Of a stretch of 32,353 bases of DNA, positions 2,989 to 7,018 are shown one piece after another; positions within the stretch are counted from its first letter, which is position 1, and each line of letters begins with the position of its first letter. A program made the translations under genes and the position numbers. The notes beneath the pieces were generated by a model that was not told where the DNA came from, did no database searches, and was given only the letters and a program-made list of their open reading frames with translations. The stretch lies in the NCBI GenBank assembly GCA_020055845.1, contig JAGVIV010000270.1, positions 1 to 32,353 on the forward strand. The letters run 5' to 3'. The stretch comes from Betaproteobacteria bacterium. GTDB taxonomy: Bacteria > Pseudomonadota > Gammaproteobacteria > Burkholderiales > Gallionellaceae.

Positions 2989-3234
2989 ATGCCTATTTAC
3001 GAATATCGTTGCAGCAGTTGCGGTATACAAAAAGATGTCATGCAGAAGTTCAGTGATCCGCTGCTGACAACTTGCCCTGAGTGCAAACAGGAGACTTTCA
3101 GCAAGCAACTGACCGCTGCGGGTTTTCAGCTCAAGGGTAATGGTTATTACGCCACCGACTTCAAGAATCCGCCTGCCCCGAAATGCGAGCCGTCCGCCTG
3201 CGCAGCCTGTCCTGCCATGAGTGGCAACACATGA
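2989..3234 (+). CDS. FmdB-family zinc-ribbon regulatory protein
   Basis: MPIYEYRCSSCG...LTTCPECKQ zinc ribbon of the FmdB family. Start taken at the ATG at 2989, not the longer upstream ORF start. Confidence 0.9.
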   Translation: MPIYEYRCSSCGIQKDVMQKFSDPLLTTCPECKQETFSKQLTAAGFQLKGNGYYATDFKNPPAPKCEPSACAACPAMSGNT

Positions 3235-3845
3235 AAAAATATCTGCTGACGGGTTTGTTGGTATGGGTTCCGCTCGGTATTACGATCTGGGTGTTGAATC
3301 TGACTATCGGCACGATGGATCAATCGCTGAAGCTGTTGCCCGAGGCTTGGCGTGTTCCCGGCTTGGGTGTGCTGCTCACGTTGGCTATCGTATTGTCTAC
3401 CGGCTTGCTGGCGCGCAACGTGTTGGGTCAGCGTTTGCTGGATATGTGGAACGCGATCCTGCAGCGTATCCCCGTGGTCAACAGCATTTACAACAGCGTC
3501 AAACAAGTCAGCGATACGCTGTTGTCGGAAAACGGCAACGGTTTCGGCAAGGTGCTGCTGGTGCGATATCCGCATCCACAGGCTTGGTCGCTGGCGTTCC
3601 AAACCACGATTCCCGGCGAAGTATCGCGCGGCCTGGACGAGGAGCACATCGCTGTATTTATCCCGACAACCCCCAGCCCGGTGAACGGATTTTATTTCTT
3701 TGTGCGCAAGGCCGACACAATCGAGTTGGATATCAAGGTCGATGTGGCCTTCAAATCCATCATTTCGATGGGTGTGGTCGCATCCCCGGAAGATGCCGCC
3801 TCAAAACTGGAAGACGCGGCTGCCAAGCTGGCCGCCAAGCAGTAA
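3231..3845 (+). CDS. DUF502 family membrane protein
   Basis: MKKYLLTGLLVWVPLGITIWVLNL...RIPVVNSIYNSVKQVSDTLL...VFIPTTPSPVNGFYFFV is typical of DUF502 proteins; overlaps the FmdB-like gene by 4 bp (ATGA). Confidence 0.9.
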   Translation: MKKYLLTGLLVWVPLGITIWVLNLTIGTMDQSLKLLPEAWRVPGLGVLLTLAIVLSTGLLARNVLGQRLLDMWNAILQRIPVVNSIYNSVKQVSDTLLSENGNGFGKVLLVRYPHPQAWSLAFQTTIPGEVSRGLDEEHIAVFIPTTPSPVNGFYFFVRKADTIELDIKVDVAFKSIISMGVVASPEDAASKLEDAAAKLAAKQ

Positions 3846-3885: not shown

Positions 3886-5682
3886 ATGCGAACTCATTAT
3901 TGCGGACAACTTAACGCTTCCCATCTGGATCAAACCGTCAGCCTGTGCGGCTGGGCGCATCGCCGTCGCGACCACGGCGGCGTGATTTTCATCGACTTGC
4001 GCGACCGCGAAGGTCTGGCCCAGGTGGTGTGCGATCCCGACCGTGCAGACATGTTCAAGCTGGCCGAATCGGTGCGTAATGAATTCGTGTTGCGCATCAC
4101 CGGCAAGGTGCGTCGCCGTCCGGCAGGCACTAGCAACACCAACATCGGTAGCGGCGAGATCGAAATTCTGTGCCACGAAATCGAAGTGCTGAATGCGGCC
4201 GTGACACCTCCGTTCCAGTTGGACGACGAGAATCTGTCCGAGAATGTGCGCCTGACCCATCGCGTGATTGACCTGCGCCGCCCGCAAATGCAAAAGAACA
4301 TGATGCTGCGTTACAAAACTGCGCGCGCGTTCCGCCGCTTCTTGGACGACAAAGGTTTTATCGACATCGAAACCCCGATGCTCACCAAGTCCACACCGGA
4401 AGGCGCACGCGATTACCTCGTGCCTTCGCGCGTGCATGCGGGCGAGTTTTTCGCGCTGCCCCAGTCGCCGCAGTTGTTCAAGCAGATGCTGATGGTGGCG
4501 GGCTTCGACCGTTACTATCAGATCACCAAATGCTTCCGCGACGAAGACCTGCGCGCCGACCGCCAGCCCGAATTTACCCAAGTGGATATCGAGACTTCGT
4601 TCTTGAGTGAAGAGCAGATCATGAATCTCACCGAAGAGATGATCCGCACCGTGTTCAAGGAAACGCTGGATGTCACGCTGCCGAACCCGTTCCCGCGCAT
4701 GACTTACGCCGAAGCGATGAACCGTTTCGGTTCGGACAAGCCCGACCTGCGCGTGACGCTGGAAATCACCGATGTCACCGATGCGGTGAAAGATGTGGCG
4801 TTCAAGGTGTTTGCCGGAGTGGCCAATTCCGACAACGGTCGCGTGGCGGCTTTGCGCGTGCCGAACGGCGGCGCATTCTCGCGCGGAGAAATCGACGACT
4901 ACACCAAGTTCGTCGGCATCTACGGCGCGAAGGGCTTGGCTTACATCAAGGTCAACGACATCACCAAGCTGAACGAAGAAGGTCTGCAATCGCCTATCGT
5001 TAAGAATCTGCACGAAGCCGCGCTGAAGACCATCATCGCCCGTACCGGCGCGCAAAACGGCGACATCATTTTCTTCGGTGCGGACAAGGCCAAAATCGTC
5101 AACGACGCGCTCGGTGCATTGCGCAGCAAGATCGGCCACGAGAAGGGCTACACCAACGGCAAGGCGTGGGAGCCGCTGTGGGTGGTGGACTTCCCCATGT
5201 TCGAATACGACGACGAAGCCAAGCGCTGGAACGCCTGCCACCATCCGTTCACTTCGCCAAAAGACGAACATTTGCAATTCCTCGAAACCGATCCGGGCAA
5301 GTGCCTGGCCAAGGCTTACGACCTCGCTTTGAACGGCTGGGAAATTGGCGGCGGCTCGGTGCGTATCCACAAAGAAGAAGTGCAGAGCCAAGTGTTCCGC
5401 GCGCTCAACATCGGCGCGGAAGAAGCGCAACTTAAGTTCGGCTTCCTGCTCGACGCGCTGCAATATGGCGCGCCACCGCATGGCGGTTTGGCCTTCGGTC
5501 TGGATCGCATCGTCACCATGATGACCGGTGCCGAATCCATCCGCGACGTGATCGCTTTCCCCAAGACCCAGCGCGCGCAATGTCTGTTGACGCAAGCGCC
5601 GTCTGCGGTGGACGAGAAGCAACTGCGCGAACTGCATATCCGTTTGCGTCAGCCTGCGCCGACTGAGGCTGCCAAGGAATAA
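3886..5682 (+). CDS. aspS: Aspartyl-tRNA synthetase
   Basis: 598 aa; [10 protein letters not shown]...[61 protein letters not shown] are class IIb AspRS motifs. Confidence 0.98.
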
Positions 5683-5683
5683 G

Positions 5684-6061
5684 ATGCAGCTCAGGACTCA
5701 AGCACGGTGGTGGCTGTTTGTCGGCTTGCTGCTGTGCTTGCCGTTTGCACAGGCGCGAGGTCATCATTCCCACGATGACGCGGCCATTTCAATTGTCTCC
5801 CTCTCCGGTTTGCCTGTTGAAGCCCGCGACACTTTTCGGCTCATCAAACAAGGTGGTCCCTTTCCTTATTCGCGTGACGGCATCGTGTTCGGCAACCGCG
5901 AACACCAGTTGCCGCAGCAGCCGCGCGGCTACTACCACGAGTACACGGTGAAAACGCCGGGTGCGCATAATCGCGGCGCGCGGCGTATTGTTTGCGGCAT
6001 CGTTCCCGAGTGCTATTACACGGGCGATCATTACCAGACTTTTCAACGCATCAGGGAGTGA
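5684..6061 (+). CDS. Secreted barnase-like (N1/T1 family) guanyl-specific ribonuclease
   Basis: N-terminal signal peptide (MQLRTQARWWLFVGLLLCLPFAQARG), then a microbial RNase core with RGYYHEYTVKTPGA, RGARRIV and YYTGDHYQTFQRI, preserving the Glu/Arg/His catalytic residues of the family. ATG lies 1 nt after the aspS stop. Confidence 0.9.
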   Translation: MQLRTQARWWLFVGLLLCLPFAQARGHHSHDDAAISIVSLSGLPVEARDTFRLIKQGGPFPYSRDGIVFGNREHQLPQQPRGYYHEYTVKTPGAHNRGARRIVCGIVPECYYTGDHYQTFQRIRE

Positions 6062-6064
6062 GCC

Positions 6065-6457
6065 ATGAGTGATCTATGTGAACGCTTGCAGGATGCGAAC
6101 GAAGCAGGGACGTATCGTTTGAGTTGTCCGCTCGCGGTATTGGAAGCAAACGTGGCATTGTCCGGGATGCTGCTGATTGATGTCGATATGGCGGCGGTGC
6201 ACAGCAAAGGCGAGTTTCTCGCGGCTATGGCGCAAGCGTTGCGCGCGCCGGACTGGTTCGGCCTTAACTGGGATGCCTTGGCCGATGTATTGGGCGATTT
6301 GTCCTGGCTGCCCGCTGGCGGATATGTGCTGTTGTTGCACGGCGATGAGCGACTCGGCCTGAACGATGCCGACTACGCCATCGTGAACGATATGTTCAGC
6401 GAGGCGGTGAGCTATTGGAAGTCGCAGGGGAAACCGTTTTGGGTGTTTTTTACCTAA
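6065..6457 (+). CDS. Barstar-family ribonuclease inhibitor
   Basis: 130 aa with the barstar core APDWFGLNWDALADVLGDLSWLPAGGYVLLLHG; starts 3 nt after the RNase stop codon. Confidence 0.9.
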   Translation: MSDLCERLQDANEAGTYRLSCPLAVLEANVALSGMLLIDVDMAAVHSKGEFLAAMAQALRAPDWFGLNWDALADVLGDLSWLPAGGYVLLLHGDERLGLNDADYAIVNDMFSEAVSYWKSQGKPFWVFFT

Positions 6458-6519
6458 TGGGCATTTCAATGTTGTTGTATAGATAATGACTTCATCATGC
6501 CCGTTTCCCTCTCCTCAAT

Positions 6520-6541
6520 CCTCTCCCGCAAGCGGGCGAGG
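6520..6541. repeat. Short inverted repeat (CCTCTCCCGC-AA-GCGGGCGAGG) in the barstar-nudB intergenic region
   Basis: 10-bp arms with one mismatch and a 2-nt loop. Resembles the widespread 'ctctcccgcaagcgggcgagg' intergenic repeat; a degenerate relative is at 25212-25229. Confidence 0.6.
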
Positions 6542-6565
6542 AGGTAAACGAATCATGCGAATTTT

Positions 6566-7018
6566 ATGTTAGTCGCGTATAAACAGCCTGTTTCGGCGCT
6601 GGTGGTGATTTATACCGCCGCACTTGATGTGCTGCTGCTGGAACGTGCGGATCATCCTGATGCATGGCAGTCAGTCACCGGCAGCCGTGAGGGCGAAGAG
6701 GCTTTGCGCGAAACCGCGATCCGAGAAGTCGGCGAAGAGACCGGTCTGGATGCGACGCATTATGTGCTGAATGACTGGCTTGAACAGAATGTGTACGACA
6801 TCTATCCCCAGTGGCGGCACCGTTACCCGCCAGGTATCACGCAGAACACTGAGCATGTTTTTAGTTTGCAACTGCCGCAACAAGTTGCAGTGCAGCTCTC
6901 GCCGCGCGAGCATTTGTGCTACCGGTGGCTGTCTTGGCGCGAGGCGGCGGAAAAGGTTTTTTCGCCGAGCAACCGTGCGGCAATCCTTGAACTACCCAAA
7001 AGAGTACGTCATGTCTGA
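6566..7018 (+). CDS. nudB: Dihydroneopterin triphosphate diphosphatase (Nudix)
   Basis: Nudix box [23 protein letters not shown]; NudB-type N-terminus [35 protein letters not shown]. Confidence 0.92.

Follow-up and report, generated by a model that had tools for sequence, protein, structure and literature searches.

The window analysed here, the whole 32,353-nucleotide stretch of contig JAGVIV010000270.1, comes from a member of the Gallionellaceae that we take to be an iron-oxidising betaproteobacterium, and the closest named public genomes belong to Sideroxydans, Sideroxyarcus, Gallionella, Ferrigenium and Candidatus Nitrotoga of the same family. Five consecutive genes on the + strand are of concern. 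A DUF502 membrane protein (3183..3845; PF04367, E=2.2e-33), syntenic in relatives, is the upstream member of a conserved block and is followed by an intact aspS reading frame encoding aspartyl-tRNA synthetase (3886..5682; PF00152, E=1.9e-126), the upstream partner of a probable operon. Behind it lie a predicted exported guanyl-specific RNase of 125 aa (5684..6061) and a predicted barstar-family inhibitor of 130 aa without a signal peptide (6065..6457), while nudB, for dihydroneopterin triphosphate diphosphatase (6566..7018; NF006961, E=3.8e-64; PF00293), forms the downstream member of the block. The aspS stop codon (TAA, 5680–5682) is separated by 1 nt from the RNase ATG at 5684, and the RNase stop codon (TGA, 6059–6061) by 3 nt from the barstar ATG at 6065; the barstar frame closes with TAA at 6455–6457. 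The open reading frame calls place both genes, and both gaps, exactly where a sequence-only reading of this DNA had put them. The gap between barstar and nudB (window 6455–6568) measures 108 nt here, contains two predicted hairpins (z = −2.5) and looks like inserted repeat sequence; the two genes abut or overlap in several relatives.

By profile (PF00545, E=1.7e-24) and fold, the first gene product is a member of the N1/T1 microbial ribonucleases, and more precisely of their RNase Sa branch; Bacillus and Streptomyces secrete their exported RNases of this family. Its closest solved structure is RNase Sa (E=5.6e-33, phmmer against the PDB), and its AlphaFold model superposes on RNase Sa, Sa2 and Sa3 at 0.9–1.1 Å rmsd. 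The description of the enzyme as barnase-like in the sequence-only reading holds for its assignment to the PF00545 guanyl-RNases and needs correcting as to the branch, since identity is about 60% to RNase Sa and only about 34%, over the aligned core, to barnase. The catalytic residues Glu86, Arg101 and His116 align with those of RNase Sa and do not vary in any of the 152 family and relative sequences that cover them; loss of a catalytic residue was looked for in this set and none was found, in agreement with the intact active site claimed earlier. A scan of NCBIfam returned no match for either the RNase or the barstar.

The second product is a barstar (PF01337, E=2.1e-23) by profile, fold and inhibitory motif, as had been proposed. 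Its structural model has a pLDDT of 93 and finds barstar chains as its best fold matches in the PDB, and the family profile matches barstar itself at E=1.8e-6 with the DxxxD motif aligned. Inhibition by barstar depends chiefly on Asp35 and Asp39; together with Asn33 they align with Asp70, Asp74 and Asn68 of the family protein, all three of which are invariant in the family alignment. DxxxD is also given as the conserved motif of Imm-Barstar in the polymorphic-toxin literature (PMC3482391).

The N-terminus of the RNase (MQLRTQAR / WWLFVGLLLCLPF / AQA) looks, judged by eye, like a Sec signal peptide spanning about residues 1–24, and the same succession of a basic stretch, a hydrophobic stretch and an AxA-like end recurs in nearly all relatives, in line with the signal peptide suggested earlier and with probable export. 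It also argues against a type II toxin–antitoxin reading, in which a cytoplasmic toxin would act on its own cell. A second line of support comes from two cysteines, Cys104 and Cys110, at the facing ends of a predicted hairpin. Of the sequences compared, 102 have both and 50 have neither, with at least seven changes on the aspS tree and no true singles; the only apparent single-cysteine cases (L073 and L117) represent one genome in which an insertion splits the RNase domain. The pair is thus a likely disulfide, and its both-or-neither occurrence is what would be expected of a disulfide in an oxidising compartment, supporting export of the RNase there. In one relative (L049 in G019) the signal has a lipobox-like LLAC at its end, which suggests that this form is a lipoprotein anchored in the membrane. 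In two others (L073 in G044 and L076 in G047) a REP-like palindromic repeat interrupts the RNase gene in frame, immediately ahead of the second cysteine, and L073 contains a further in-frame insertion of another kind. Repeats related to the palindromic one number 12 in G005, eight in G044 and none in the window's genome.

Expression of the pair is probably tied to aspS by co-transcription and translational coupling. The 1-nt spacing here, a distance of 0–6 nt between the aspS stop and the RNase start in many relatives, and a + strand without any promoter-like site ahead of the RNase between 3600 and 5684 all support read-through from aspS, in line with the co-transcription considered probable from the start. 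Other genes intervene between aspS and the RNase in six of 56 family loci, so the coupling would not be obligatory.

The distribution of the pair was followed in a family set of 60 Gallionellaceae genomes, including the window's own, and in an order set of 40 genomes, one for each of 40 other families. Within the family, the RNase and the barstar each occur in 59 of the 60 genomes as a single copy, and in the sole genome without them (G035) the contig ends inside aspS. The order aspS–RNase–barstar–nudB, in the same orientation over whatever stretch the contigs cover, is kept in 56 of the 59 loci, most of which also have DUF502, fmdB and rsuA further upstream of aspS; among the three deviating loci, one is cut by a contig end (G013) and two have aspS elsewhere (G021 and G027). 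In the order set the RNase is found in 16 of 40 genomes, 15 of them with an adjoining barstar, and the pair sits in the aspS–nudB slot in five of 40 (G064, G069, G071, G079 and G088). One further genome (G096) shows RNase–barstar–nudB without aspS, aspS directly adjoins nudB in some (G065 and G074, for example), and in other families the pair is located elsewhere or missing. Comparison of the aspS–nudB interval across relatives, as the sequence-only reading had proposed, thus shows that the pair is not a class-wide occupant, being absent from this slot in most other families. Public named loci repeat the picture: the barstar lies directly behind the RNase in 79 of 80, the 80th ending at a contig edge, and the pair again occupies the aspS slot in Gallionellaceae and in records of Rhodocyclales type (Dechloromonas, Azonexus, Sulfuritalea), whereas those from Burkholderiaceae, Comamonadaceae, Oxalobacteraceae and Streptomyces have the pair outside it. 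Stabilisation of the module through its linkage to aspS, as had been suggested, need not be invoked, as the pair persists away from aspS in G021, G027 and 10 order-level genomes.

Vertical inheritance is reflected in the trees. Distances for the RNase and the barstar correlate with those of the aspS tree (r=0.69 and 0.64, respectively) and with each other beyond what the aspS tree accounts for (partial r=0.32, Mantel p=0.002). Slot membership requires 11 changes on the RNase tree, compared with 37–47 in shuffles, and a single origin of the aspS–nudB slot is neither demonstrated nor rejected (AU p=0.058) on an RNase tree that is short of columns. Because dN/dS, for pairs where it was computable, ranges from 0.03 to 0.26 for the RNase and from 0.05 to 0.32 for the barstar, purifying selection acts on both genes, a little less strictly than on aspS; no positive selection was seen by dN/dS, and DUF502 values above 1 were treated as alignment artefacts of partial matches. 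The strict pairing and correlated divergence of the two proteins are indirect hints that the barstar would bind and inhibit the neighbouring RNase. Searches for a mobile source gave no match to the pair in 50,697 phage records and matches in only 16 plasmid records, none above 60% identity, and a phage or plasmid origin was rejected on these grounds. Five of the plasmid matches (H11–H15; Citrobacter, Enterobacter and E. coli) are stretches without a listed gene that are about 47% identical to the RNase. Throughout the Gallionellaceae the two genes belong to the stable core of the family and are not a newly inserted weapon.

The pair belongs to the known simple barnase–barstar kind, with affinities to several described systems. 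Like RNases Sa, Sa2 and Sa3 of Streptomyces, with which it shares about 53–63% identity over the mature domain, the Gallionellaceae RNase has the same fold and the same catalytic Glu, Arg and His; it differs from them in its predicted Gram-negative signal peptide, in the clade-typical Cys104–Cys110 pair, and in having a barstar gene directly downstream within a probable operon with aspS. The predicted combination of an exported RNase and a cytoplasmic inhibitor recalls barnase and barstar of Bacillus amyloliquefaciens, whose barstar fold and Asn33/Asp35/Asp39 are kept; the RNases have the low identity given above, and in that species the genes for RNase and inhibitor do not share an operon (PMC5021464). 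A joint operon of RNase and barstar genes is found in the balifase–YrdF system of Bacillus licheniformis (PMC5021464), whereas balifase is of the barnase/binase branch, is phosphate-controlled and has different neighbours. Simple barnase–barstar gene pairs in toxin–immunity order, as well as Tox-Barnase/Imm-Barstar cassettes, are known from Zhang et al. (2012; PMC3482391); a location between aspS and nudB and conservation throughout Gallionellaceae are not described in the portion of that work drawn on here. A literature search on Gallionella or Sideroxydans gave no relevant account of an RNase–barstar pair, and that the pair is fixed across the family at a position between aspS and nudB seems undescribed in the literature searched. 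A barnase–barstar-type pair thus behaves as a core, vertically inherited gene pair across a bacterial family and not as a mobile weapon.

A universal, single-copy and vertical distribution favours a conserved physiological role, and the presence of exactly one copy in one place in nearly every Gallionellaceae genome makes general RNA breakdown in the periplasm or outside the cell the likeliest one; we consider it probable, if by no wide measure certain, that the pair comprises a Sec-exported guanyl-specific endoribonuclease serving this purpose and a cytoplasmic barstar acting as a safety device. The aspS transcript would also yield the RNase, probably through translational coupling, and any enzyme folding in the cytoplasm would be kept inactive by barstar. 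Otherwise it would cross the inner membrane, fold in the periplasm with a Cys104–Cys110 disulfide and there, or after release, cut RNA 3′ of guanosine via a 2′,3′-cyclic intermediate. An RNase I-like function would in this way be filled by an unrelated enzyme, and barstar would be a safeguard rather than immunity in a toxin arms race. The RNase T2/RNase I family is absent from 59 of the 60 family genomes and present in one, with E. coli as positive control, so the main RNase of the periplasm may be the one of RNase Sa type; such a replacement of RNase I is an argument from absence, and many members of the order have neither enzyme. We put forward only tentatively, as a rather unlikely extension, that in Gallionellaceae and neighbouring Betaproteobacteria the RNase Sa-type enzyme is the standard periplasmic RNase replacing RNase I, its dose tied to translation capacity via aspS and barstar serving as a permanent fail-safe. 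The physiological role of exported RNases in Gram-negatives without RNase I becomes directly testable with this system.

Alternatively, the RNase could be a toxin released for interbacterial competition, leaving the cell by a type II system or lysis and entering neighbours while barstar protects siblings. Barnase–barstar modules do serve as toxin–immunity cassettes in polymorphic toxins (PMC3482391), and the order of the genes is that of toxin followed by immunity. One order-level genome (L097 in G072) has the RNase domain as the C-terminus of a large protein with polymorphic-toxin features, with a divergent barstar behind it, and a high-scoring GspD is found in 38 of the 60 family genomes. 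We nevertheless regard competition as unlikely, as the family RNase has a signal peptide only, without a delivery or receptor domain, the universal and vertical distribution is neither patchy nor polymorphic, and most of the 22 family genomes without a GspD above the cut-off still carry the pair. Two narrower candidates were rejected: dependence on type II secretion, because the pair is present in nearly all family genomes whether or not a high-scoring GspD is present, and a polymorphic toxin system (CDI, RHS and similar), because the protein has 125 aa and no delivery domain and its RNase domain is constant across the family. The case warns against taking each RNase–barstar pair for a competition module.

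The enzyme might also be secreted to scavenge phosphate or nucleotides, in the manner of the phosphate-starvation-induced binase and balifase of Bacillus, and the induction of the B. licheniformis operon of balifase and its barstar gene by phosphate starvation (PMC5021464) offers a precedent. We hold such a role to be quite improbable, because coupling to aspS, with no + strand promoter-like site ahead of the RNase, suggests housekeeping rather than phosphate-controlled expression, and because fewer than half of the family genomes have a periplasmic nucleotidase family, which is also not found in the window's own, 89% complete genome. Matches to PF02872 (UshA/CpdB-type nucleotidases) occur in only 25 of 60 family genomes, are mostly about 575–600 aa long and could be SoxB, so they do not add up to a complete nutrient-scavenging chain; nucleotide scavenging through CpdB/UshA was rejected given this patchy and possibly SoxB-confounded occurrence.

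Recent mobile insertion between aspS and nudB with hitch-hiking on the essential gene, the original interpretation of the locus, finds some footing in families whose aspS adjoins nudB without the pair and in the uptake of cargo at the aspS–RNase junction itself, and yet is very improbable and was rejected on family-wide synteny, for the pair fills the same slot throughout the family and in five of 40 others and is no peculiarity of this genome, changes slot far less often than in shuffles and lacks phage matches.

The varied small genes found at the aspS–RNase junction mark it as a location for small cargo genes. A closely related Mrr-type restriction endonuclease lies exactly between aspS and the RNase in four family genomes of four genera (G002, G011, G012 and G019, at L032:807-1709, L041, L042 and L049:4043-4945), the copies being 66–76% identical to that of G019; less similar Mrr genes are found elsewhere than at this junction. 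The same position is occupied by a DpnI-like restriction enzyme and a DUF2442 gene at L047:3963-5087, by a DUF4160 gene followed by a DUF2442-like gene at L058:1525-2049, and by a small aspartyl protease at L049:4954-5346.
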